Part shown: piece by piece, positions 1 through 51,900 of the stretch
Numbering within the stretch: the first letter of the stretch is position 1
Layout of the letters: the number at the start of each line of letters is the position of its first letter
Assembly (NCBI GenBank): GCA_963971535.1
Contig: OZ020592.1
Location: 56,796,836-56,860,835, forward strand
Source of the DNA: Notolepis coatsorum
Taxonomy: Eukaryota > Chordata > Actinopteri > Aulopiformes > Paralepididae
Direction of reading: 5' to 3'
Length of the DNA stretch: 64,000 bases
Notes under the pieces: generated by a model
The model's database searches: none
What the model was told of the DNA's origin: nothing
Seen by the model: the letters and a program-made list of their open reading frames with translations, nothing else
Program-made: the position numbers and the translations under genes

Positions 1-824
1 AGACTTTGTTAGTCGTTTTTTGTGCTTTCTTTCATGCTGAATGAGATGGGCTACTTCCTGACAAATGACGAGGACATCTCTTGTAAGCACTACATTTAAA
101 GATGTCTGTTTTTACAGATGTGCTGATTCAATTAACAAATTAGTTAACCTAGTCCCATGACTATAGTCAAGGACAGCCCAAGTATCCACTTAGGAATGAC
201 CCTGTAACATCTTTTGCCCAAAGAATTTGTTGCCCAGATACATTATTTGGTGCCAAGTTAAAAAAAAAAATATAATAATCTTGTGCTTCAAGTTGTTCAT
301 TTCATAAACAGATTCTTGGTTTTCATGATTATGATTTTTTTTGGCTTTGCTTTGTGTTTAACCCTTTCACTGCCACACGACAGAAGGTTAACCCTTTACT
401 ATCACACAACCGACGGCTGTCGTGTGGCAGTGAAAGGGATAACCTGTGTATTGTCGCAGTGAAAAGGGTTAACCGTTTTTGGTAGCGAGGCAGTGAAAAG
501 GTTAAGGATCTGTCAGTTTACACATGTGCCATTACCTTCTACAGCCATTCCCACCTAGAAACGGAAAACAATACCATCCATTTCATTAGCAAGAATTATG
601 AAAATGAAAGGGGCACTTAACAGATTTTTAGCCTGACATCATCCAGCAGTTTCTCAGGGGGTGATGTATCTGAGCTCTCGAGACACAGACCACATTGCTG
701 TTATGTCCGATGTCCTCCTCACCACAGAACAATAGGATTCAGGTTCAAAATCTGTAACATGCCCCTTTTGACAATAGCCAACTCCATCCAGACGCTTCAG
801 TAACACCCTGTCTCCTCCCTGCAG
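1..824 (+). other. Intron upstream of srcap exon 1
   Basis: No coding frame was found. The stretch ends in a pyrimidine-rich 3' splice site (acceptor AG 823-824). Its only notable content is the TTAA-bounded repeat cluster at 358-505. The exon that supplies the first base of the split codon is to the left of the window. Confidence 0.6.
358..505. repeat. Cluster of short TTAA-bounded palindromic repeats
   Basis: The motif TTAACCCTTTCACTGCCAC and variants occur several times in both orientations within about 150 bp, each bounded by TTAA. This looks like the terminal repeats of piggyBac-type elements with almost no interior. A related cluster lies at 23636-23797, and single ends occur near 29265 and 52366-52412. 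Confidence 0.65.
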
Positions 825-3800
825 GTGCCTTGTGTAGCCGGCGTAGCAAAGAGGGAGGAAGCTCCGGGGAGGAGGCGGTGCAGCGGCGCACCCCACCGGC
901 TGTGGATGTGCTGGGTGGCGACTCCCTGGCTGCACAGAATGTGGCTGGGTTGTCACCTCAGCATGCCCCGCAGCCGGTCGCAGCTGCCCCCCTCCCGGTC
1001 CCATCGCTCGCTAACATGTCCACCACACCCACACCGCCTGAGAGTGGCACAACACTTCACCGCACTGAGAAAACCACCTCACCCGAGACTCCGCCATGCA
1101 GCAGTGATGCTAAGGATAGTCTCCTGGCAGAAGGGTTCACACTGGAGAGGCCTGCCAAGGGATCTCTGCCAACGGCCTTCCTCGTTGAGGATGGCGGTCT
1201 CTCCGCCGAGCCGCAAAGGAGTCCGCCAGCTCCCTCAGATGGTACGCGGCGAGATCTGCATTACGGGTCACAAACTGATACAGGAAGAAGCCACTCCGAT
1301 AGTCCGGCAGACCAAACTGAGTGTGGCCAGGACCAGACTCTGCAGCAGCCGGGACAGACTGGTGGACTGGTGGTTTTCACTGGGGCAGAGGGGGGTCAGC
1401 CCCTTTCAGACAAACACTCATTGGAATATAAACCAGAGACTGGAAAGGAGGAAGTTATTGGAGGAGTGCACACAGTCAGAAATATCCTCCCACAACTCCT
1501 CTCTCAATCCGGCTCCACAGCCTCTTCCTCCTTTTTCCCCAACCCCTGTGTGGATAGTACAGTCAAAGACTACACAGAAGATGGAGGCACGGAGCAGTCC
1601 CAAACAGCCCCTCTTGCTCTGGCAAACCAAGGCAGCCACCTACCGCCGGATGCTGAGAAGCAAACGGGTGGTTGCCCAAACTCGGAACAGCCTCTGCTCT
1701 CTGTACTCATCTCCGACAGCAGTGCAAGCAAACAAACTGACCTCTCAACAGCGCCACTTAAAATGGCCAAGTGGCTCTCGAATGATGACGGAGCGATGCA
1801 GGGAGCAAATGCTGTTGAGGGAGCGGAAATTCTTCAAGAGCCTATGGAATCGAGCGAGCAACAAGAGTGCATTACGCAGCTTGTTGAAATCTCTCACGAA
1901 GAACCACAATTCCCACCTCCTCCCACACAAATTCTTGAGACCCCAATGCTGGGAGAAGGACACTATGATGTCTACATTTGCTCTGGCAATGGGGACTCCA
2001 ACAACACAGCCGATAGAGAGGAGACTGAACACCCAGCAGAGGGACAGATGGAGAGGAGCAAGACGGAGGAGAAGACTGATGCGGCCGCCTCCTTGTCCGG
2101 CATTGCAGTGCTGCAGAGTTCAACAGAAACCCCTCCTGCTCCCCTCCTCTTTGATACAGAGCTAGTAGACTTGAGGCAGACTGAGCCGTTAGATGAAGCA
2201 GATGCATATGCATGTAATCCTATTGTCCACTGCCCAAGGGTCGAGACTCCACTGATCTCTGAGCTTGTCGAGTCGGCCGGTGCCCAGCGAATCGTTATCG
2301 TTAGGGAGGAGGCGCATATCAGCGGAGACTGGTCCGAGGTACATGTGAACCAGGGATACATCCTACAGGAGGACGGCAGCGTATGTCAGGCGTCTGTCCT
2401 CAATGAGCTCGGCTCTGAACTTTACGCCGGAGAACCAAAACTGTATGGAGAGAGTATCCATTCGGACATTGAGATAGACTCGCAACCTGTAGAGGTGTAT
2501 GAGATCTGCGGCCTGGTGGAGGAGGTTGCAGAGGAGACGATCTGTATCAGTAGTGCTGGTCAGATGCCCTCCTCCCCGGGCTACGAAGTTAACCTATTCA
2601 ATGCACTGCTGGAGCACACAGATGATTACGTAGTCAAAGACGAACTAGACTCCCTTCACCAATCTCCCCTTCACACCATTGATGGCAGCGGCAATGTCAT
2701 ATTTTGCCAACAGGGCCACCCTTCGTCAGATTATACACATGAAATGGAGGTTTGCTCTAATGACATAACCCATAGCCTGTCACCACTGAATACAGCGGTT
2801 GCTGTAAGGGAGCATTTCGTTTTGGACACTACCCAAGCTGATGAATTTGAGGTGACTGACTCTGGTGAGGTTTGTTTACTACAAGCCGCTCCTACCCATG
2901 AACGGACGGACTCCAATGGACAAACTATGGCACCTTGTCTGCAGTCCTATACAAGTGTTTTGCACGTCACCCAGATTCTGCCTGAGAAACGTGAAGTGGA
3001 AATGACAGCAATTGCATCTTCTCTTGTTTCCCCATTGACAGTAGTCGCATATGAGGAGACGGTGGCGGTGGACTCGTCTCTCCCAGCTTCAGTGTCTGTT
3101 TCCCAGTTAGAAAACCAGCAGACTCTGAAAGAAACCACGGGAGTTACTGTTGTAAACGCCACAAAGCCTGAAGCCTGTGTTTCTTCGCATGAGGGGACCA
3201 AAGAAAATCCCGCTCGGACACAGAATATTCATAATGTTACTGTGACGACAAAGACCAAACCAGGGGCTTCCTACTCGACCTTCGCCACTGGTGTTATAGA
3301 CCCAAAGCACCACCTTATAAAACCGAGAGACACTCATCTCCTCAAACATCCACCCTCATTTTTAGCACAGATTCCCAAGCAACCGAACAAGGAGGATTTA
3401 TTGGCCAATGCCCACAGCTCTGGGCCCAAGACCGTGTCTGCAGAGTGCCTTTCCCAAACTATCTCAGTGGCCGATTCAGTGTCCAAGCATGTGGCTGTTA
3501 GCGGCCAGAAAGATCAAACACAGCCCTCTGTCAATAAAGCATCTGATACAGCACCTCCCACCAAGGCACAGCAGCCTATTACTACTACTATTAACACCCC
3601 GTCCCGGCTCCACCAGGCTGCAGCTGGCCCTCCCACACCGTTACAAAGTAAATCTGATAAAGAGGCCTTAACTAGGACTAAAACGTCCACGGGGAACACA
3701 CACCCTGTGTGCCTGCCTGCCAAGTCCCAGACCCCTAGCATGCCCCCAGCATCAGAGAAACCGGCAGGTAAAGCAACAGTTTCATCTGGTTCTAAACCCT

Positions 3801-4036
3801 CCGTCGGTCAGCCTGACGCCCTCCGTCAGAGTGAGGAGGAGGACGATGACGACGAGGACGAGGACGACGAGGATGGTGATGAGAGTGAGGAGACGGAGCA
3901 GGACGGCTCACTGGGAGCAGGGCCCCAGGAGTCTGCCCCGGGGCAGCCTAGTAGCCCAGAGGAGGGCAGCGATGGAGAGGCAGAGCCTGCTAAAACCGAC
4001 TGCAGTCTAACCATCCCCAGCCCAGCAGACAGCAAG
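825..4036 (+). CDS. srcap: srcap exon 1 in window: 1,070-codon N-terminal exon
   Basis: Seen: one open frame of 1,070 codons after an acceptor (AG 823-824), ending at a donor AAG|GTATGA. It is phase 1 in and phase 0 out. The product is Ser/Thr/Pro/Glu-rich without a recognisable folded domain, has an LxxLL-like motif at 1486-1500, and ends in an Asp/Glu run (about 3829-3906). It has no counterpart in the human SRCAP N-terminus as I remember it. It is assigned to srcap because exons 2 and 3 continue in phase and have no in-frame ATG before the conserved AKHEAEIE block, so translation must start upstream. An in-frame ATG with A at -3 lies at 1015. Alternative: it is the last exon of an upstream gene that reads on to the TGA at 4040-4042. 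Confidence 0.75.
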
Positions 4037-4715
4037 GTATGACCTAAATGGGTTGATGCTTTTTTATTTGGGGTTTAGAAACAGGTTGCTTCTAAAGCTT
4101 CATCAAATTAGAGGCCCAGCTAGTGGATGGCATACAAAAGCATTAAGGTTCACAGTACATACATAGCTCATGTCTGAGGATGTCTGTGTTGTAATAGGTT
4201 GTCTGCATGAAAGACAAAAAAAAGTTTTTGGTGGCAGATTTGGGTGAGAACTGATGCTGATTGTGATTGGCTCAGTAGTTTTTCTGTGCTTTCACAGAGT
4301 GCAGCTTCATTCTGTTTCACTTATTATTCTCAGTGGAGCCATTATCTGTTATTATGCTGTTGAAATCAGTGATAAATTGAATTCAGTAGAAGCTTAACTG
4401 AAATAGAGGCACATGGTAGCCTAGGCATTTGGTCTGGTCTCACTGTGCGTGCATGGGAAAGAGAATTTCAGAGCGGCTGCGTGGAGAGATTTTTGGAGGG
4501 AGAGAGTGCCCTGTGTAGACTGAGTTTGCTGTATAATTAATAGGCTATAGTAATGTAGCACAGCCTGTCTGTCCTGCAGTAATATAGCCTATGATTATAC
4601 CGTGTGGTGGCTCTTTTGAAATCCTTTGGAAAATAAGTAAAGCAACAGCAGAATTGGTCACTTATTCCCCCAGGCCATCCGAACACTGAACACTGATCTC
4701 TCCACACATGAACAC

Positions 4716-4787
<72 letters not shown>

Positions 4788-7700
4788 CAGGTCACTTTAA
4801 ACACAAAAAAAGTTACTTTTAGTATAGTTATATAGTATAACTGTGTATATTGTATAGTAGTGTATATAGGACTAATTACCTTTAATTTGTAAGCATAGCA
4901 TTGTATTGTATTTTATCTTAGTACTTTTTATCATGTCTATTTGTATTTTTTTGCACAATCAAGGCGGGCATGGCCACCTTCATTTCACTACATGTCTCAT
5001 GTATGTATGTGACGAATAAATCTCTTGAATCTTGAAGAGATTCATTTGTGTCATGATGATTTCATTTGGCTGTTAATCATGCTGGCATGTTTCCACTGTT
5101 TCCAAATGGTATTGTTCCTCCTTCAGCTCACGTTTGTTCCTTCAAAAAAGAAGAGGGAAAAAAGATTGCATGCAGTGCTCCTTTCAATTCCATAGATGTG
5201 TGAATGCACTATTTTTAATTATGTAGTGGTTTCTAAGTTGGCCGCATGTTAAGCCATGTGTGTTTTCCAGCATGGGCAGAGCAGGACAGAGAGAAAGGCA
5301 CTATTATCAAAGGTAAGTGGTGGTTGTCAGACACCCAGACAGGCTCACTCTCTATTGTGCCAGGCTATTCACTGGCACATCTTAAAAGGGGCAGTTCACC
5401 CAAAATAAAAAATAAAACGTATTTCCCCCTTTACCTAGGAGTGCCATCTATCCATCCAGATAGTTTCAGTGTGATTTGCCTAGTTTTGGAGATAATCTGC
5501 CGTAGAGATTTCAGCCGTCGAGATGTCTGCATTTCACTCCAATACAATGCTCTCAAAACATAGAAGAAATACATTTTAAAAACTCAAAAAGCAATGTCTC
5601 TTTCTAGAAATAAAGATATTCCACACATGTTGTCGCAAACAGTTTAATGTAGGAACTATTTTCTACCAAAGTATTATAATATTTTTTTTTGGGTGAACTG
5701 CCCCTTAACTTTCACGCTATGACACAAGGTGTACTGATCTCTGGCTGGCACTGTAAGATTGTATGGCTGCATGGGGGGGGGGGGGGGCACAGTTCAGAGG
5801 CGTTGGATATGGAACAATATTTGAAGCAGATTTGTAATGCTGTTGCATGTTCAGACATTTGCTTCCTTATGTAGGTTCCTTGCTCGGTTCTAACCTTGGC
5901 ATGCTTGCTTTTATCCTTTTTTAAGAACCTTGTTACCAGAATCTTGTTCAACATTTTTTATTTCCTCCTTGTCCCTTCCCCGTCGCCGCCAGGTACGGCA
6001 GTGGATAGCAGACAGGGTCACGGTGAGTTCATCTCCCGTCTCGCCCTGCGCCTCGTCCCCCTCCCCTGGCCCGTCCTCTGCCAGTGACTGGTCCACCCCT
6101 CGCCGGGACAAGGGCTCCCCGCTTCGAGGGCCCCAAGGGAAGTTCCTCTCTCCATCTATTGTGGGCCCATGCAGTTTCTCTTCTTCCCTGCTGGATCAAG
6201 CCACGCCCTATCGCCCCCGCGGGGAGAAACATACGGACCTGGCAGAGCTGGCCAAACATGTGAGTGGATGAATGTACGAGTCCCAGTCTCATCGGGATGA
6301 ATGTATGAGTCCCAGTCTCATCGGGATGAATGCACAAGTCCCAGTAGCCTTTCTCCAACGCATTCGTGTTACTTTCCGCGTCTCTGATTGGCCAGGTCAT
6401 GTGACATGTACGCCCAATCGTGGGACAGCAAGTTTCTACACTGGTTAAGCTTAGGAATAGGCGCTCTTTCGAAGTTGGTTAAGGTTAGAGTTTGCCTTAG
6501 AGCAGGGCGATAGAACACCTGCCCTGATTCCAAACTCTAACCTTAACCAACTTTGAAAGAGTCGCCTAAGCTTAACCAGTGATAAACTAGGTGTTAGGTA
6601 GTTTGCAGGCTGTTCGACCCGGAAATAGGCGCAGAACTTGCCGTCCCACGATTGGCGCACATGTCACATGACCTGGCCAATCGGAGCGCAAAACGGGAAC
6701 ACGGAAACACGGACGCGTTGGAGAAAAGCTACACGCGTCCCAGTCTCATCAGGATGAATGTATGAGTCCCAGTCTCATCAGGATGAATGTATGAGTCCCA
6801 GTCTTGTCAGGATGAATGTATGAGTCCCAGTCTCATCAGGATGAATGCACGAGTCCCAGTCTCATCAGGATGAATATATGAGTCCCAGTCTCATCAAGAT
6901 GAATATGAGTCCCAGTCTCGTCAGGATGAATGTACGAGTCCCAGTCTCATCAGGATGAATGCACGAGTCCCAGTCTCATCAGGATGAATGTATGAGTCCC
7001 AGTCTCATCAGGATGAATGTATGAGTCCCAGTCTCGTCAGGATGAATATATGAGTCCCAGTCTCGTCAGGATGAATGTACGAGTCCCAGTCTCATCAGGA
7101 TGAATGTATGAGTCCCAGTCTCATCAGGATGAATGCACGAGTCCCAGTCTCATCAGGATGAATGCACGAGTCCCAGTCTCATCAGGATGAATATGAGTCC
7201 CAGTCTCGTCAGGATGAATGTATGAGTCCCAGTCTCATCAGGATGAATGTATGAGTCCCAGTCTCATCAGGATGAATGCACGAGTCCCAGTCTCATCAGG
7301 ATGAATGCACGAGTCCCAGTCTCATCAGGATGAATATGAGTCCCAGTCTCGTCAGGATGAATGTATGAGTCCCAGTCTCGTCAGGATGAATGTATGAGTC
7401 CCAGTCTCGTCAGGATGAATGTATGAGTCCCAGTCTCATCAGGATGAATGTATGAGTCCCAGTCTCATCAGGATGAATATATGAGTCCCAGTCTCGTCAG
7501 GATAAATGTATGAGTGCCAGTCTCGTCAGGATGAATGTATGAGTCCCAGTCTCGTCAGGATGAATGCACAAGTCCCAGTCTCATCAGGATGAATATATGA
7601 GTCCCAGTCTTGTCAGGATGAATGTATGAGTCCCAGTCTCATCAGGATGAATGTATGAGTCCTAGGGGTGTAACGGTACACAAAAACCACGGTTTGGTAT

Positions 7701-13700: not shown

Positions 13701-16700
13701 CCAATTCTCCTCTCACAATATTCACCCTCACTGAACTGAGTCATCTGAAAATGTGCATATCTGTGATGTCAGAGATTTCTCAGCTGCATAATAATGTGGC
13801 AGTTGATGTGGCAGTTGGCACCAGGCCACACAGTGGTTGGAGCCCAGCCTCAAAACGGCTTAAGATCTTGAGGTAGAAAAATGCGGGTTTTAGTACTTGA
13901 TTAGAAATACAAAACAATGCATTTTTTTTTGAAAAAAACCTAGGTGTTCCATAGACTCACAGGAATTGTGTAAAAGTGCCCAAATAGTGAAAGAAATAGT
14001 ACATTTTTTAAATAAACATTATTTTTTTTAAATGGCTAAAAGTGATTTTGTGATTTTGCAACCGTGGGTCTCACAGGGTACTTTTAACCCTGTGAGGCCC
14101 AAATAAAAAAGTGATTTTGTGATTTTGCAACCGTGGGTCTCACAGGGTACTTTTAACCCTGTGAGGCCCAAATAAAAAAGACATTAGCAACTTCAGAGGC
14201 CAGAGGGTGAGACCTATAAACACATGAAGGGTGCCGTGACTGAAAAAAAAGGTTGAGAAACGCTGGTATATGGTGTGGCTCTTTGTGGTACCACAGTAAT
14301 TTTTTTGTGGCTCTTAGTCTCTGACTGGTTGGCCACCCCTGCACTAGATGCTTAACTCTCGGTATGTTGAGGGGGCGTGGCCTTCTGTTCACTAGACACT
14401 ATAGATTCTTGAGTATGCTGATGCTGAGCACCACTCGGCTAGATGTAACTGATGGGACACACACAAGGGGAGAGAGAAAAGCAAGATGTGTCTGTAGACG
14501 TTCTTTTGTTCATCAGCCTCGTGAGCTCAGGAATCGGCCAATGCTGATTATCTCAAAATGTCAAATATTTATTGGCCGGCGTGTGAAGATTTAGAGCGCT
14601 TACTCAACTTTGATTTCCTTTTGCTTTTCCTTTTTATTATTTATTTATTTCCAATGCCTTTGGATGTTAACTCATTAGTCTTTTTTATACCTATATTGCA
14701 TGAAGCACCTTGAATTACAAGGTCTGTTTGAAATTCCCTTTTATAATACTGTATTCATTACCATGATTACATGAATTTTTCTATTTATCGGTTCCCCACA
14801 GGAAGCTGAAATAGAGAATCGTACGCAGTCTTTGAGGCGAGAGGGGTACTGGTCCACGAAGCGTCTGACCCGTCTGACGGAGCCGGTGCGGCCCAAGGTC
14901 CACTGGGACTACCTGTGTGAGGAGATGCAGTGGCTCTCCGCTGACTTTGCCCAAGAGAGGAGGTGGAAGAGAGGTGTGGCCAGGAAGGTAAGACAGACCA
15001 CTTAACAGCAGATTTGACTTGTTCTAAGGTTACAGAATGTAGCGATACCACAGGTGTGGTGTCGGTAGTTTTTGGGTGCCTGTTCAGTACTTAGTCGAGA
15101 TCACCTAAAGTGAGGACTGTTCCGCTGTGAGCTGCTCGGGTAGTTTAACTGTTTTGGGGCTAGCTTAGTTAGCAGCTAGTTTAGGTATTTTGCCGTGACT
15201 TGGGCATACAGGGATGGCGAGGATGCGAAGCATAAACACATTGGACCCGTTGGCATTGGATATCCGTCTTCAACAACCTCCTGGTAGGGCTGAGCCCGAA
15301 CGTTCGGACCTTCGTTCGTTACGTTGGCGCTCGAATCTTAATTAATGGGTTTTTGAACCTCTTTAAAATTTCTTTTTATTTTTCAATTTCCGTTTTAAAT
15401 TTTAAAATGTGAATGTGATATATATCAGAATATCACAGTACTATGTTGTGTTTACAATCATTTGAAAGTCAACAACAGTCTAGTCGGGATGAGGAGGGGT
15501 CCCCGTCATACATTATCAGGAAATGAATCAATCATGCAAAAAGAGAGTTGAGTGACTCACACTCACCAGTCTTATTTTTCATAATACAACGTTTCCGAAT
15601 GGATGTTTGGATTAAACCAAGTGTGTGCAGTGATGTTGAACTTCCCAGCGGAACACAAGTTACTTAACGTTACACAGGTATGCTATGCACGTTAATTAAG
15701 CTATGCAGAGCGCAGCCCTTTAGCTTGCTAATGTTAAGATAGCAGGAGCCGTCGGCCAACAAAGATGTTGTTTCAACAAATGTACTCACAAAATGGATTA
15801 CCATCCAAATGATATTTTTTTTTCTCTTTTTTTAAATGTTCTACTACTATGCTTTGTAAAAGAAGACGGAAATAAAATCATTCATTCATTCATTCAAGCC
15901 TCCCGTGACCAGTAACTAACCGCAGAATTATGCGCTACGTTATGCGTTAATGTGCGTTATGTGCCTAAAGTCAAGACTCGACAGTACTGAACCAGAAAAA
16001 TTATTTAGGAGCAAATTGTTTGCATGATTAAGAACGAAGGTTTGAATGTCCATTTGAAAAACCCTGGCGAAGTTCGAAGCCCAAAAACAGGCTTTGGGGA
16101 CAGCTCTACCTCCTGGTAATCTTTTTGAATATCCAAAATGGTCCCACACTATTGTTTATTTGTTCTATTTGGACTTTTCTCTGACCACAGGTGCTTGTTC
16201 TTATGTAGTGTTGTAGTACTTAAGCGATCTTGGACTCAAGACCACAGTCTTGGCTCGACTCTCCCCCCAATAATGGTGACCAACTTTTTTTTGTTTGACA
16301 GCTGGCAATATCTCTGCTAGGGATGCCCCGATCGATCGGCCAGCGATCGGTATCGGCCGATATTCAGTAGAAATATGAGACTGGTGAATTCCGATAATGC
16401 TTTAATTTCACCGATCGTGAAAACCGATCGATGACACGGAAAACATGATCCAATTCTCTGCGGAGTTCTCACTCGCTCACAGCCACACTCTGCTGCTGCA
16501 CGTCTTGCCCCTCCTCCTCCTCCTTCTCCCCCTCCCAGACCCATCTCATGTCAACAAACAAACCCTTCGACAAGAGTCGAGTGCATGAGCACCGCAGAAC
16601 TCCTCTTTCAACATAACTGAAGCATTAAACAAAATGGCCCAGTCATCTATTCACTTTTGTTTAATACATGAGGCATTGTCTAATGTTATCTAGCTACTGA

Positions 16701-36956: not shown

Positions 36957-39900
36957 AGTCGACTTGCGCCGTGCTCGTAATAGTATCTCTCTCATTGCGC
37001 TGTCGGCAACTGTTTACGTTTGTGAGTGCTATAGTCCAATAGATGAACGACTTGGCGACTGTATGTCCTTTGTTTACAAATTAGATCCGCACCAAAAAGG
37101 GTAGTGTGAACGCAGACCAAAATCAAACAATGTATAATTTTCACATTTGGTCTACCAGAAAGTCCGGACTATCCGCGGACTTTCAGGTGTGAACACGCCC
37201 TAAGTCTACATCCTGCTCTGTAAAATGACTGGATGGGATTGTTCCTCTGTATTAGATGACACTTAAAGGTTTAGTGCAAGTTACAGCAGTGGCTCAGGAG
37301 GTAGAGCGGTCATCTGGTGATGTGAAGGTTCCTGGTTCGAGTCTGGCAGCGTGTTGGATGTGTCCATGTGCAAGGCACTAAACACCTAAGGCCAGGGACA
37401 AACAGGACGCTGAAGCACCGCAAAGTGTTTATTGTCAAGCAACTGCTCTGTTTCAATCACATGTAGAGGCGCTCGCGGCTTGTGGAGAAAACTATCGCTG
37501 AAGATCGCAAGTCTTTATTCAGTTGTTTCCGTTTGTATTTTTAAATGTTTTCAGAACAAACATACAAATAAAATGGTATAAACGGTCCAATTGTAACTTG
37601 TAATGTAAAGGAAACTGGCCGCTCTTCCCGATGCATCAGGGAGCTTTGGTGTCCGGTTGGTCTGGTGTAACTGTGTGTGTTCATAAATTATAAAAAGCAC
37701 TATTAATGCAGTCCATTTACCATCATGGGAAACACTGCAGTGCACTGTTGATGGATGTTTAACAAAACCCAAATCTAATGTACCCCCCCCCCCTCAGGCG
37801 ACATGAGCATGGAAGAGTTACTGGAGAAGTACAAGGGTGCGTACACCTCTGACTGTGAGGAGCCCTCTGTGTCCGGCTCCAGAGGCAGCTCAGAGTCTGA
37901 GGCGTCTGGAGATGAGGAGGTGGAGACAGAGGAAGACGAGAGCGATGTGGAAAGCAACTCTTCCTCCTCTGGTAAGGAAATAATTAACTTAAGCTTCTTG
38001 TTGGTAAGAAATATGGTTACCTGTCCCACGCAGTGAACCCTTGCACCGAGAACTGTTTTATCGAGAACGAGTAATATTTATTTTGACTTTGTGTCGAGGG
38101 CCTGTCCTTTTATTTATATTTGTAATACATCTTTGTCCTTTTATCTAAATCCTAATTTTTTACATGTGCATCAGATTCACCAGAGGAATCGGAAGAAGAA
38201 GAGGTGGAAGGCGAAGAAGATAGTGAGAAAGATGAAGAAGGGAGCGAGGAGGAAGAGGATGATAGCTGTGGAGATGAGGGCATGGAGATCCTGCTGAAGG
38301 AGGGAGACAACAGCCCTTCCTCGTCTGGCCCCCGGCCCAAGAAGGAGATCAGCCACATTGCCGCTACCGCAGAGAGCCTGCAGCCTAAAGGCTACACCCT
38401 GGCCACTGCCAAGGTATGGGGGTCTGTTGGAATCGGAATCGGAATCAGAATCAGAAAGGTCTTTATTGCTTAGTATACCTTTCACATACAAGGAATTTGC
38501 TTTGGACGTTACTGGTGCGACATTAGCGGACAGACATTAACAGACAGATAATACAATAAAGTGGTGGAGTAAAATAAAATGAAATATGAGCTAAGTTAAG
38601 CACAATAGAATAATATATTTATGAAATAAAATATAGGCCAGGGCTGTACGACTGTATATAAGAGGTTGAATAAAATTATATGGGATATAAACTAAATTAA
38701 ATAGAGCACAATATTCACTGACATATTCAACCTGTCCTTAGAACAGTCGGTCATCCCCACCTGTCTGAAACAGTCCACCATTAACCCTGTACCCAAAAAA
38801 TCCACGCCCGCTTGCTTTAACGACTATCGCCCTGTAGCTCTCACCTCTATAGCCATGAAGTGCTTTGAGAAGCTAGTGAAGGGCTACATCTGTTCCTCCC
38901 TCCCCAACACCCTGGACCCCCTGCAATTTGCATATCGCCCCAACAGGTCCACGGAGGACGCCATAGCCCATGTGCTGCATACAGCAGCATCACACCTGGA
39001 CAAGAGGCAGGGGAACTATGTGAGAATGCTGTTCATCGACTATAGCTCAGCATTCAATACCATAGTCTCCATCAAACTCGTAGCCAAGCTCAGGGACCTG
39101 GGCTTGAACTATGACCTCTGCCAGTGGGTCTTGGACTTCCTGACAGGAAGACCCCAGGTGGTGAGAGCAGGCAACTGCATCTCCTCATCCATCACTCTCA
39201 ACATAGGGGCCCCCCAGGGCTGTGTTCTGAGCCCCCTCCTCTACTCCCTGTACACACATGACTGTGTGGCACAGCGGAACAACAACACAATTATCAAGTT
39301 TGCTGACGACAGTCGTGGTGGGCCTGATCTCTGCAAACGACGAGAGGGCCTACCTGGAAGAGGTAGTGCACCTGGCGCGATGGTGTCAGGAGAACAGCCT
39401 CTCCCTGAACGTCAGCAAAACTAAAGAGATGATTGTGGACTTTAGGAGGTTGGGGGCCAGGGACTACAGCCCCCTCAGCATCGACGGGGCACCGGTCGAG
39501 AGAGTGAGCAGTTTTAAGTACCTTGGAGTCCACATATCCGAGGACTTGCCATGGACCCAGGCATTAAAGCATTCCGTCTTGAAACGGATTTCCGTCAATT
39601 TGATTCGGAGTCGTGACGGATAATATGATTTGTAGACGGAACAACATAAGCACCCGCCAAGCGCCAATGGCAGGCAGGTTTTAGGTTTGGCGAGTGACAT
39701 TTGCTGCGGTGTGTTTTGGTTTTACGACAGTCGCCTTCTTTTGCAGCCTCGCCCGTCCTTGTTTACCGACGTCACATCCACCACCTGCTTATGTACCTGC
39801 TTGCACTGTAACGTTACGCACGCCTGCTATACCGGAGACTGTACTTTAGGAGGGGGTGGGTGGGGCGGCTGGGTGGCGCAGTGGGCAAGGCGCTCGCCAC

Positions 39901-42900: not shown

Positions 42901-45900
42901 CCATCCTATGTTGCTCTGGCCCTCCTCCATCCTGGCACCTTCAATCCTATGTTGCTCTGGCCCTCCAGCCTGGCACCTTGAAAGAGGATTCATTTTTAGT
43001 TTAACACTACTGAAATGCCTTCATTTGTTTAGCGCCTTTCCCTGTCGTTCATTTGCAAATTAGTAAATTAATGAACATACTAACTTAAATATGAGCAATT
43101 AAATTAGTAGGGAAACAACTAATCCCACAACTAAATATGAGGCATAATCATCCTATCTTTTGCTCAATAACAGGTGAAGACTCCCATCCCCTTCCTGCTC
43201 CACGGCACACTGCGAGAGTACCAGCACATCGGCCTGGACTGGCTGGTCACCATGTTTGAGAAGAAGCTGAATGGTATCCTGGCTGATGAGATGGGTCTGG
43301 GCAAGACCATCCAGACCATCGCTCTGCTGGCTCACCTCGCCTGTGAAAGAGGTGAGAGGTCGATTCATTACGCTTATTATGTGGAATAGTGTCATAAATA
43401 TCGATTGCGCCTCCATTTTTGGACAGTGACACACATATTCTAGGTGCTGGTGGTGGGTGCTACATTAACACACACACACACCACTTGCTGCAAGCCCATT
43501 TACAAGACATGCGACAGAGCAGTGCCAGGCGTGCTAGCGCAACAGATTTAGCAAAGCACCTAACATTAAAGGACCGACATGCCGAACTTTAGTCTATAAA
43601 AACTTTCAAGAGGTTGGTTTCATCATCAGTTCTTGTTTCAACATCACTGAAGCATTAAAACAAGATGTCCCAGAAACTCCGATCAGGCAGAAATCAGACA
43701 GCTGCGTTGCAATTGATAGGGGAAATACTTTGACTATGGTCAGTAATTAATTAATAGGGTAATTCCTGGGAGGCTGGTAATAGCCCGCAACGTGTATTAT
43801 ACTAAATGCATTGTGTAACTGAGGGGTACAATTCCCTGACTGTATTATATAAGTATGGTATCATTAAACCACTACTGTCTTATGTACATTACTACTGGCC
43901 ATACAGTACACAGGTATATTAGATGAACACTTCCCACAATGACACGGTTCCACACAAAACTGGGTTTAATAGTATTTATTAGCAGCAATGATAGTATATA
44001 ACAATACTTTACGTAGGGTTGCGCTTATAAGGCGAAAGAATGTGCGTGAGCAAATCAATAACGTAAGTCCATTCTCATATTACGCAGGAGATAATGAATA
44101 CAACCTGAATCTTAGGAATTATATCTATGGTACACTAGTAAGGTAGCGGGAGATACTGGTAGGGTCCCTCCGGTTGTAGGCCAGCAAGGGGAGAGGATTT
44201 GTCGGTAGTATAGTCTGGGTCAACGAAGAATAGAGAGACTCCAAGTACAGGAGACGGTGCAATAATCTCTTGATCCGCAGACGAATAACAGCTGTTCTCC
44301 GTGGCATGCAGCTCCGCATGGAAGAAAGCTAGCCAGCCTCAGGCTTCTGAGAGGCGGGCTCGACGTTGCTCCTCACAGGGTAAATCCCACACAATTGTGG
44401 GTGTAGACGATTCTCCGCTCCATCAATTACAGGACCAAAGCAAATATAATCCAGCCGAAAAGGGCTATGTAGTCGTCGGGTAGGTTATCCAGTGTACATG
44501 TCCACACGGTCCTCGTCTAGGGCTCCTCGGGTGAAGGCGCCAGGGTAAGCTGCCCAGCCTGGATAAGCACACTAGCTGGTACGAGGAAACGTTGGTGATG
44601 CTGGTCACTGTAGCCGCACGATACACTATACATAAATAGACTATTACTGAATTAATAGAATAGGTCGAACTCGACGGTACAGCGTTAAACTCTGATACTT
44701 CAGTTATTAGTTCGCACGCGGTCTCAATGCTCTATTTGGGGCCAAACAGGCCATACTTCACCGCACGTTGTATCGTGGGTGAGGCTTCAACTTATTGGGT
44801 AACATACTTCTGTATTCACCTGCGCCGTATTTATAAGTTAGGTGAACAAACTAGTACCAGCCCTATTCCTGTCTCGTATCCTTGCGCAGAGCCGTTCATG
44901 CCCAGGCATGTCTTTGACGGTGACTTTGAACTAGACCCTGGGGGTATGGCAATGGCGCCTAAGGGACCGCTGTCCAATAGGAGAACGAAATATTATGGTC
45001 TGTACTAGGTTAAAGGGATATTCCGTGTATATGTACAAGGAATACACAAGGGATATCAAACGATATACAAATATTATGCAATATATATCAATCAATAAAT
45101 ATATATATTCGGTTTAATCTGATCCTTCGTAACACATTGGCATTTCGTCCCTACACACACTACAATAAAAAAATCAAATGCATATGATAGGTATTATGTA
45201 CCATCATGAATTCATGAAAGGGTGGTACATGATGTACATGGTTTTTTGATGCTCTGATCGCCACCAACGGCATACGTTGTGGAGTAACGTTACAGTAACA
45301 CTTTCGGATCGCAATGAAGGCATGCTCGGATCAACGCAAGATTGATATCATATAGCCCTAACCTTGACTAGGATGTGCCCCAAAAAGAATATTCCAATTA
45401 TCTGATCGCCATTGTCCGTCGTGTCGCCAACATAATCCATCCCACAACACCCATCGGGAGTGTTTGATTCTTCTCAATCCGTGCGTTATAACCGCTCGTC
45501 ATGCCCGGAGAAAAAGAGCTGAGCCGGACCCATGTAACCGACGCACAGCCCAAGACACAACATTTCAAAGGGTGCTCGATACCGCCGATTGGTAGGATGC
45601 GGCCGGTACTGCACCTTCGGAGTCCCAGTATGCATTTTACAGGCAACATACAGCTCCCCGACATTGAAATCGAAAAAACATGTGATTGGCACTCAACGGT
45701 CGGGGCTCAGAAACGTGTTAACACGTGATTGGCACTGAAAGGGTTAATGTGTAATAATAATGACCAATAAAATGTGATTTTGTTTATTTTAGATAAAACT
45801 GTAGTAAGTGATACCGGCTCCTACCCCGTACGTGGGTCCAGACGACCACACGATGACTGTCTTATCGTAGCTTTTCTTGTGTTAAAAAATCAACATACAA

Positions 45901-48900
45901 TAATTGACCCATTTCCCGGTTGTGTTCAGGTAACTGGGGCCCCCACCTCATCATCGTTCCCACCAGTGTGATGTTAAACTGGGAGATGGAGCTGAAGCGC
46001 TGGTGTCCCAGCTTCAAGATCCTCACCTACTTCGGCAGCCAGAAGGAGAGGAAGCTGAAGAGACAGGTAACAACCCGGTGTTTTATACCGAGTAGGGGTG
46101 CGATGATCTCAATACATAGCGCTTTCAGACAGACACGGTTCTGGCTCTGACTCCGTTCTGGAGTCTCAGAACCTTGGTGTTTTCTGACTAACCAGCCGCG
46201 TTCACACCAATTCAAGCAGAACCAAAGTTCCTCCGTCATCAACGGGGGGCGGTACTCTGGCGGAAGTAAACACAACACTTGCAAAATGGCAAATCGCATT
46301 GATTATCTGCGAGCTAATTTATTAATTATTTGGTCTGACGTTCTAGTGAACCCAGCCTTGGCCATCTCTTCTACAAGTTCTGCATACAGCTTGCTCTTTC
46401 TGGTACTACTATGTAGGGGTGGACGGTATAAACGGTATACGGTATAAACTGTATGAATTTGCTCTACGGTATGGATTTTGACTATACCGTGTAACCGGTA
46501 GGGCAGCTCTAAAATAGCAATGACGTCATGTAACCACAGCGCGACAATTTCACTCGCATTTGCCCCTAAAAATAGATAGAATTAGTCATAGATAATAGAT
46601 ATGTGCGAACTGGAAAAAGTTATTTAGGAGGCTTCGCGCAGTGGGCGTGCCAGCCCCTACCGCACGCATGTAAACACGGGTCTAGTAGTCTAGTGGGACG
46701 GGACGTACACGGGAGGACGGCGGCGTCTCCCTGAGCTAACGTTAGCTTAGCTACCGTTACAAAATGACCCAGTCAACTATTCACTTTTAGTTTAATACAT
46801 GATGAGGCATTGTCTAACCGAACGGTATCTAGTCGGCCAGCTACCGATAGCTCCTGACATCAACAAACGCTCCACAAAGTCTAGTAGAGACGTGTATGCT
46901 ACCTGTTAGCTCACGTTAGCGCAAGTTAGTTCACCGTTCAAAACTAAATGTCCCATTGAACTAAATAATTCACTGAGGCGTTGTATTAACGTTATATATC
47001 CGGCTAGCAGTAGCTACAGATAGCTCCTGATATCAATGTCTTATAACACTGATTCGATGCGTATTCGAGCTGAGGGCTTGCTGAGCACAGTTAAGTAACT
47101 ATACCAATAGGGTCCAGGTGCAGCGCCGGAGAATCCTGGCCGTAGCTCTGCTCGAGGCTACTCGAGTATAGGTCCAGGTGCAGCTCCGGAGAATCCTGGC
47201 CGTAGCTGGAGGCTACTAGAGTACACACAGACAGTGGAGCTTGTTGCGTGGTGGCGATGTCTCGCAGATAATACAAGTACAAGTCTAATTATATAATATA
47301 TATATTTTATTAAAAAAAAAAAATTATATAAAAATAATTTTTTTTTATCAAAAACGATGATACCGTGATATATACCGTTACCGTCTATGCTTCAAATTAT
47401 ACCGTGATATACATTTTAGACCATACCGTCCACCCCTACTACTATGTAGCTTTTCCTGGAACTCTGTTGATGCCCAAATCGGCCAACAAGCATTTTGTTT
47501 CCACGGCAGACCACTGCAAATAATTTCTTTCCACTGACATTGTTGTCAGTCGCTGTCTCCTTCCTTCTGTCGCTTCCTGTTCTTTCGCTTGTCTTCACAG
47601 CCTAGAATATGACACGCCCACTGATGATGTTACTGTTTGCAAGGAAAAACCAAAATGTTTTTCGTTCCAGCTGAGAACAAACTTTTCAGGTTCCGAACCA
47701 ATGAATTTTCGGTCTGAACGCGCCGGCCGGTTCAAAATTAGGTTCGGGAACCGGAACCGGCACGGAGCCCTGCCGGGGTGAAAGGCTGACAGAATAAAAA
47801 ATTCGAAAGAAGAAAAAGCTTGCAGTACAGTACATCGGAATTCTCATTCTCTTGCCTAGGTCTCTCGTTTATTTTACTCTGTTTAACTGGTGGTATGGTG
47901 TGGCTACTGCTATTAGAATAATGTTTTAAGGGTCATTTTAATTTTTTCTTTTTTTATCTACTTTTTCTCATTATTTTCAATTTTTCTCCCATCCCAATTT
48001 CGTGTTTTTTCCAATTCTCCCCTCCCCTGTCTTGAACGTTGCTCGCATATGCCCCCCACTGGTCGTTGTAGGGAGGATAGAAGCCTTGCATCACGTGTCC
48101 CCTCCGGTACACGAGGAGGCAGCCTGTCGCATCTTTTCACCTGCCAGCGCGGACTCTCAGTGGCGAGGTGTAACGTGTGGGAGGCTCACACTACCCAAAC
48201 CATTTCCTGTCTCTGCTGTGCAGGCGTCCCCCAACCGACCTGTAGGAGTCGCTGTCCACAACGTCCAGATTACCACCCATCGACTTCCACCAGCTGACTC
48301 TGCCAATTGAGCCAGTATGACGACCGGTTTAAACCGGAGGCAATGCCGACACCCGGATTCGAGACCGGAGTCTCTTGCATTGGTGACGAGCGCAATCTCC
48401 GCTGCGCTACCTAGCCGCCCTGGGTCATTTTCATTGTTTATGATTTTGAGATAAAAAAAAAAAATTAATTATGAGCTAAACCAAGCGGTAATAGTATATA
48501 TAATCTATAATTAGAGCTGTGTAGTATAAATAAACGCATAAAGAATCGAATTGTGACATCAAACATTTTTTACTATCTACTATATTATACTAGTAAGATA
48601 AGTTACTATATAATAAAACACCAAGAAATACAGGAGTTATACAATACAAGTACAATTCTTATATCACCAACATAGCATGTGATCAAATAGCAGGTGATCA
48701 AAGCACTCAGGGCAAATCAGTCAAGTCAGTAGCATGAATGAGAGAAAAAATAAGACTAAGAGTAAAAAATTTGCAAGTACAAAGACGAGGAAGAACAACA
48801 TGTGAACCATGTCTCCTTGTGTTATTCCAGGGATGGACCAAGCCCAACGCTTTCCATGTGTGCATCACCTCCTACAAGCTGGTGTTGCAGGATCACCAGG

Positions 48901-51900
48901 CGTTCCGACGCAAGTCTTGGCGGTACCTGATCCTGGACGAGGCCCAGAACATCAAGAACTTTAAGTCCCAGCGCTGGCAGAGCCTCCTCAACTTCAACAG
49001 GTCCGTAGGGCAGGGTGGTCTTTTTTGGGAAACCAGAGTCCAAACAGCTGCTACAGGCAAGCTTTATGTGCACATGTAGCACCTAGTGTTGCTTTATAGA
49101 AGTGACCTACATCACAAGAGCAGCGCTCCAGGGCAGAGTGGGAAGACGTTTCACCTGTTGATGAGCTATTGGAGTAGTGATGTTGTCGGTTGTTGGCCAT
49201 GTTCATAAGTTAACTATTTATACCAGTTGGTTCACACCTCACATTCAGATTATTTTATTGTCACAGCTTTTTTATATGTGTACATAGTATACATTAAGAA
49301 AAACGTGAGATGCTTGTTTTTCTCTGTTCCTCAACCGTAGTAGATTTGTAGACAACAATATACAACGATCTATACAAACTATACAATACAAGGTAAAAAA
49401 AACAGTGGATTCGGTCATTGTTTCCCATGATTCCATTTCCAACATTGTTTTGGTGATCTAACAGGCTTGTTGTGGTGATCTAACAGGCTTGTTTTGGTGA
49501 TTTAACAGGCTTGTTGTGGTGATCTAACAGGGATCTACCAGGTTTGTTGTGGTGATCTAACAGGGATCTACCAGGCTTGTTGTGGTGATCTAACAGGCTT
49601 GCAATCGCAGTACACCGTGGCCAAAATCTGACAGTATAGAACTCCTTCTTATGTATTGTTGTTTCTTGGTGTTGTCTTGCTTGTGCTTATCTAAACACTG
49701 TTCCAACCTCTCTTTGTGTATCTCCAATCATAAGTTATCAGTCGATGTCATGGTCTTTATCTAAACACCGTTCCTACCTCTCTTTGTATCTCCAATCATA
49801 AGTTATCAGTGGATGTCATGGTCTTTATCAAAACACCGTTCCTACCTCTCTTTGTATCTCCAATCATAAGTTATCAGTGGTTGTCATGGTCTTTATCTAA
49901 ACACCGTTCCTGCCTCTGGTGGTTGCAGCCACAGGCGGCTGCTGCTGACGGGCACCCCTCTGCAGAACAGCCTGATGGAGCTGTGGTCCCTCATGCACTT
50001 CCTCATGCCCCACGTCTTCCAGTCCCACCGCGAGTTCAAGGAGTGGTTCTCCAACCCGCTGACGGGCATGATCGAGGGGAGCCAGGAGTACAACGAGGGC
50101 CTCATCAAGAGGCTCCACAAGGTGCTCCGGCCGTTCCTGCTGAGAAGGATCAAGATCGACGTGGAGAAGCAGATGCCCAAGAAATACGAGCACGTGGTGC
50201 GCTGCCGCCTGTCCAAGAGACAGCGCTTCCTCTACGACGACTTCATGGCTCAGGCCTCGTAAGCTTTTTCACTTGATTCACTTAACTATGAATGAATTTG
50301 TTTTGGGTCTTGTGTTATCAGACGCCCAGCCCACACAACATTAAATATAGATCGTAAAAATCATGGAAAATTGCATTATTTGTGGCAGGGTCGTTAGAGT
50401 TAGACCGTCCCGTAACTGGATGGCCGCAGGTTTGATCCCTGTGACGGCTAACATATCCTTGAGCAAGACACTGAAGCCGTAAACGCTCCAGGGTTCGTGG
50501 TAATTGGCTTGACCTTGAGCTCAGAGGGATGTACACTATACATACACATATATCATTTCCTTAATAAAGTACCGGTATCACAAATTCAAAGTTTTGTGCT
50601 TTCATTTGAAATGTAAGATTGTGATTGTATAGAATTGATGTGCTTAACATTTCACACCAATAGGATGATATATGTGTCCAATTGACTATCTTTAACCCTG
50701 CCCTCTTTTCTTGATCCTCCAATCACCACTGTTGCTTTCCTCTGAAGCAACCGTTGTGATTGGAGGACCAAGAAAAGAGGGCGAGCCTCAAGACGGGTCA
50801 ATTCCATATCGTCCCCAATGTGTCAACCTCCCATACCTCACTCTCTCCTACTTTTTTCTTTCATATCAGGACCCGGGAAACCTTGGCCAGCGGGCACTTC
50901 ATGTCCGTCATCAACATACTGATGCAGCTGCGAAAAGTGTGCAACCACCCCAACCTTTTTGACCCTCGGCCCATCCACTCCCCCTTCATCACCAAGCCCA
51001 TCGTGTTCCACACGGCCTCCCTGGTGCAGGACGCCTTGGAGGTCCAGCCGCTCAAGGTCGGCATTAAAGTGGAGTGGAAACCCTCACCCGGAATTAATTC
51101 ATGTTTTATTTCTTGCTCCACAGACGTCTTAAAGAGTAGGAATCAGGGTTGGAAATTAACAGGGGCTTGGGGCAAAGTGTCCACGGAAATGAGTTAATGG
51201 GGGTAAAAAACGGAGTGAGGTAGGAAGGGAGAGAGAGAAGGGGCAGGTGTGGGTTACAGGCAGGTCCGCTTCTGTGTGTAGCTATACTGTAATTCATTAG
51301 GTACTTCTGAAAATATATAGCCTAAAAATGTTTAATGGACTTTTTCAAATCAAGCTTTTAGAGTTGCAATATAAAACAAAATATCCCTGTGAAATCCTGG
51401 TTGGGTCTGGACTATGTATTTGTCGTAGCCGTTGTCTCGCTTGGTGGTCTGGACTTTACTCTCTGCCGCAGCCCTCACTCCCTTCACCAGAGAAAAAAAT
51501 AACGAGGCAGAATTTTACGAGGTTGAACGCGATATCATCAGTATGCAATGTGTGTCCAGCCCCTCCAGACTCCCCCCTCCTCTGTGCTTAGAAAATAAGA
51601 CCCAATAAAGACAGAATTTTACAAGGATCAACCCTAATTCATCAGTATGCGATGTCTGTGTCTGTCCTTAGCGTTGTGACCTGTCCATGTTTGACCTGAT
51701 TCGTCTGGAGGGCCGAGTGTCCCGGTACCAAGCTGACATCTTCCTGCCTCGCCAGAAGGTCGGCCGCCAGCTCATCCAGGAGATTATGGAGTCCCCCGAA
51801 CCTCCTCCACGACCCAAACCCGTCCGCATGAAGGTCAACAGGTAAATGGTTCAGGGAGAAACGAGAACAGAAAAAACCTGGAGTGAGTTTTAAAGAGTAA

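Follow-up and report, generated by a model that had tools for sequence, protein, structure and literature searches.

Passages of PMC11995519 describe the pre-HSA region and part of the HSA of EP400 as binding DMAP1, actin and BAF53a, and assign the domain ahead of them to the TINTIN module, with MRG15/X, MRGBP and BRD8 as partners. Human SRCAP, a paralogue of EP400 with 3,230 residues (6igm chain H), has 102 residues before EAEIE, where a first reading of the present locus, made from the sequence only, had put about 120 before the HSA. We analysed a window of 64,000 nucleotides of the fish Notolepis coatsorum, in which a very long open frame precedes the srcap gene. We lean, with moderate confidence, towards this frame being a 5′ coding exon of srcap that adds a long N-terminal extension to the protein.

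Judged by protein similarity, the gene downstream of position 5993 is srcap. Its first mapped exons, together with a small exon ahead of them, are the following.

5271 to 5312, plus strand: exon of 42 bp and 14 codons, in phase 0 on either side, donor AAG/GTAAGT
5993 to 6259, plus strand: srcap exon of 89 codons, starting and ending in phase 0, with ...LAELAKH as its last residues; counterpart of human SRCAP residues 18-102
14802 to 14987, plus strand: srcap HSA exon, matching human SRCAP residues 103-160 (E 1.3e-25)

The HSA exon is closest to SRCAP, the EP400 chains reaching E 1.5e-17 at best. The first lobe of the Snf2 ATPase is also collinear with human SRCAP: five matches at 43171-51056, two of which extend past exon ends, cover human residues 606-940 with 65-98% identity. 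A tblastn search with human SRCAP (E 0.01, low-complexity filter and composition correction off) returned 22 matches. Most of them trace srcap in the human order along the plus strand, as far as about 58,855, which corresponds to about residue 1,265 of the query. Five of the 22 are not collinear. One (27556) hits an already mapped srcap exon a second time; the other four are low-complexity matches inside the large open frame (E 1e-4 to 3e-3), acidic or proline-rich and out of order. None of the five was given weight. A reverse-transcriptase-like open frame, which we take to be a fragment of a non-LTR retrotransposon, lies within srcap at 38705-39424 on the plus strand.

Exon 5993-6259 is absent from the 22 tblastn matches, so that its homology rests on an alignment test, the shared AKH/EAEIE junction and its position. 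The local alignment with human residues 18-102 starts at the third codon of the exon and scores 89, where the best of 500 shuffles reaches 57. With the last 19 residues removed the score is still 68, a value reached by one shuffle in 500. Human SRCAP begins 17 residues ahead of the aligned region. As the exon encodes the counterpart of human residues 18-102, srcap coding continues upstream of 5993. The donor of the 42-bp exon is the only one scoring at least 7 between 4060 and 5993. At 5271 the acceptor of this exon is of middling quality (top 8%). Both exons had been described as phase 0 and free of in-frame ATGs, which is correct inside the boundaries 5271-5312 and 5993-6259. The intron after exon 5993-6259 carries a minisatellite with a unit of about 27-30 bases (tgaatgtatgagtcccagtctcatcagga), which occupies 6260-7500 and beyond.

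Upstream of these exons lies the large open frame, which ends at a donor-like site.

825 to 4036, plus strand: large coding exon; two codon-completing bases, then 1,070 codons in which S, E, P, T and A abound; the first ATG in frame is at 1016
4037 to 4042, plus strand: donor GTATGA, read in frame as V-stop; its TGA (4040-4042) is the stop codon if the exon is taken as a last exon

The stretch 825-4036 is a genuine coding exon, on account of its open frame, its codon-position GC, its strong acceptor and its usable donor. All 1,070 codons are free of stops, as first reported; in 300 Markov-shuffled versions of the stretch, the longest frame reaches 282 codons at most and 134 on average. GC at codon positions 1, 2 and 3 is 0.62, 0.48 and 0.53, an uneven and coding-like pattern. 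Consensus matrices put the acceptor before 825 in the top 0.2% of the 3,840 AG sites of the window. The donor after 4036 (AAG/GTATGA, score 3.52) is in the top 1.65% of its 3,827 GT sites; the exon ends there in phase 0, as first proposed. At mapped srcap exons the acceptor beats 13 of 14 crude acceptor picks, and the donor beats 7 of 14 crude donor picks, each the best GT inside a short range near an exon end rather than a verified boundary. Beyond the donor the frame continues for one codon (GTA) before the TGA, as could happen by chance within intron sequence. The first in-frame ATG, given earlier as 1015, is at 1016; it has a purine at -3 and is preceded inside the exon by three out-of-frame ATGs (906, 939 and 963).

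Tryptophan makes up 0.2% of the encoded protein, which carries a conspicuously charged segment close to its end.

3833 to 3907, plus strand: acidic run of 25 residues near the end of the large exon, from the translation; approximate coordinates, read by eye

A search of 177,635 distinct PDB chain sequences, EP400 chains included, gave no match to the large exon at E up to 10. A 284-residue piece of it gave one PDB match (E 1.7), discarded as chance. Pfam and NCBIfam searches each returned no match above the cut-off and one below it, and no relatives were confirmed among viral and prokaryote contigs, which might have carried stray fish DNA. Against residues 1-102 of human SRCAP the exon scores 47, equalled by 206 of 500 shuffles, in line with the earlier remark that the human protein starts with nothing like it. 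By the same measure, an SPQH stretch common to both was discarded as chance. Thus neither the human SRCAP alignment nor the PDB chains revealed homology joining the large exon to SRCAP or EP400. The extension is probably disordered.

Phases are compatible at every junction from 4036 to the HSA exon. We propose that transcription starts upstream of 825, in an exon around 46-82 or ahead of the window, and that the acceptor at 825 is used. The donor at 4036 would then join the 42-bp exon in phase 0, followed by exon 5993-6259 and the HSA exon, these being predicted junctions. Srcap would have 1,110 residues before EAEIE if translated from ATG 1016, and at least 1,173 if it starts before 825, versus 102 in human SRCAP. 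The first two bases of the large exon complete a codon; if the frame begins upstream, a phase-1 exon must therefore precede it.

46 to 82, plus strand: weak candidate preceding exon; ATG at 34 or 46; donor after 82 would leave phase 1, which fits the two bases 825-826

The candidate donor scores 1.7 (top 3.9%) and the acceptor for 46 is poor (rank 66%). The true start of the long form may lie before the window. Also ahead of the large exon, at 361-440, there is an inverted pair, ccctttcactgccacacgac and gtcgtgtggcagtgaaaggg, as in a small inverted-repeat element.

The sequence-only reading had offered two explanations, an extension of srcap or the last exon of a neighbour. We favour the extension because the donor phase matches, no poly(A) signal is nearby, and the gap between the large exon and srcap (4043-5255) is CpG-poor, unlike a broad promoter. 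There is no AATAAA or ATTAAA in 4037-5014; the first signal after the TGA is the AATAAA at 5015, 973 bases on and about 240 bases before an ATG at 5256. This AATAAA belongs to a sequence at 4850-5040 that ends in gaataaatctcttgaatcttgaa, a tail found as a single copy in the window (up to 4 substitutions allowed) and resembling that of a fish retroposon. The observed/expected CpG ratio is 0.22 in the gap versus 0.68 in the whole window. Eight of 628 sliding windows of the same size are as low, some of them overlapping the gap itself. No CpG-rich stretch occurs in 4043-5311, the best 300-bp window having a ratio of 0.39. CpG-poor sequence is unusual for the promoter of a broadly expressed vertebrate gene, a rule weaker in fish than in mammals. 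The gap also contains a CA repeat.

Counted against the extension are the ATG at 5256, the lower GC3 of the large exon, the codon model, the lack of similarity of the large exon to the human SRCAP N-terminus or to any PDB chain, and the acceptor at 5271, which is mediocre and outscored by acceptor-like sites of the gap. The large exon has a GC3 of 0.53, versus 0.79 in the pooled srcap exons; nine srcap exons taken singly range from 0.58 to 0.95, each above the large exon, whose own thirds give 0.54, 0.51 and 0.52 from first to last. Trained on 742 codons of srcap, a codon model scores the open frame at -0.052, the neighbour frames at -0.049 and -0.245, and one antisense frame at -0.004. It places all of these above introns (-0.65 to -0.90), but the open frame does not stand out from its neighbours.

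The ATG at 5256 also bears on where srcap begins.

5256 to 5312, plus strand: alternative first coding exon for srcap, opened by ATG 5256 (GCCATGT); 19 codons, in-frame stop at 5250-5252

This ATG precedes the presumed acceptor (5271) by 15 bases, is in frame and stays open through the 42-bp exon to the donor at 5313; the 42-bp exon could thus serve as the first coding exon. A scan for small 5′ exons in 4037-5992 found four donors scoring at least 1.7 (4037 included), a cut-off that would miss weak donors, since 5 of the 14 crude donor picks at mapped srcap exons fall below it. Two of the four have an in-frame ATG within 4037-5992, at 5246 (4 codons) and at 5256 (19 codons). ATG 5256 undoes the argument that srcap, lacking a usable ATG after the large exon, has to begin upstream of both small exons: a far upstream start is likely, not necessary.

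The large exon could instead be the last exon of an upstream gene, ending at the TGA 4040-4042 and using the AATAAA at 5015, with the srcap promoter in the gap and translation from ATG 5256. The N-terminus of Srcap would then consist of MCVFQ, 14 residues and exon 5993-6259, and the 19 + 89 = 108 residues before EAEIE come close to the human 102. Such an arrangement has an in-frame start with a purine at -3, has no need of the mediocre acceptor at 5271, and accords with the difference in GC3 between the large exon and the srcap exons. It must, however, place a promoter in sequence without a CpG-rich stretch, treat a donor-like site of that rank right at the stop codon as coincidence, and leave about 240 bases between its distant poly(A) signal, which sits in the retroposon-like tail, and the srcap start. 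Altogether, we regard this arrangement as unlikely.

Alternative promoters would reconcile the two structures, one yielding a long form that includes the large exon and the other a short form begun at ATG 5256. Both are open and in phase, which speaks for such a pair, whereas no promoter-like composition precedes 5256; we consider it very unlikely that both forms exist. Finally, the donor at 4036 might be used by a neighbour gene, distinct from srcap, whose last exon lies in 4043-5255. Acceptor-like sites of the gap (4298, 4674 and 5127) each outscore 5271, but two more elements would be needed, the last exon itself and a promoter for srcap, within 1.2 kb that is CpG-poor and carries a CA repeat; we judge this arrangement highly improbable.

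As a 5′ part of srcap, the large exon would encode a probably disordered arm with an acidic end, placed directly before the pre-HSA/HSA region. By analogy with the N-terminal domain of EP400, the extension may dock partner proteins or histones and leave the motor itself unchanged. Such a docking arm appears to us the likeliest function.

With such an extension, Srcap might be a form of a familiar protein that has not been described before. Among the literature matches listed (titles and abstract openings, most subscription journals being outside the scope), none reports a long N-terminus of fish Srcap, and the extension may already exist in databases as an automatic gene model. If it is real, fish SRCAP models differ from human SRCAP in an untested front end of a thousand residues. 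For annotators, the choice of the srcap start codon is open in such genomes.

The locus agrees with human SRCAP in its HSA exon, in exon 5993-6259 and in the order of its exons to about residue 1,265; it differs in its front end, the short human N-terminus being unlike the large exon. With human EP400 it shares the HSA exon, which matches 8qr1_A from residue 780 onwards (E 4.4e-17). EP400 thus has a long region before its HSA, and the large exon differs from the EP400 chains of the PDB in having no detectable sequence similarity to them. It is conceivable, and in our estimate quite unlikely, that the ancestor of the vertebrate SRCAP proteins had an EP400-like long N-terminal docking arm, kept here in one giant exon, and that mammals lost the arm and start beside the small exon, whose start-like ATG (5256) persists in this fish. 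Should the extension prove true, the layouts of SRCAP and EP400 may differ less than mammals suggest.
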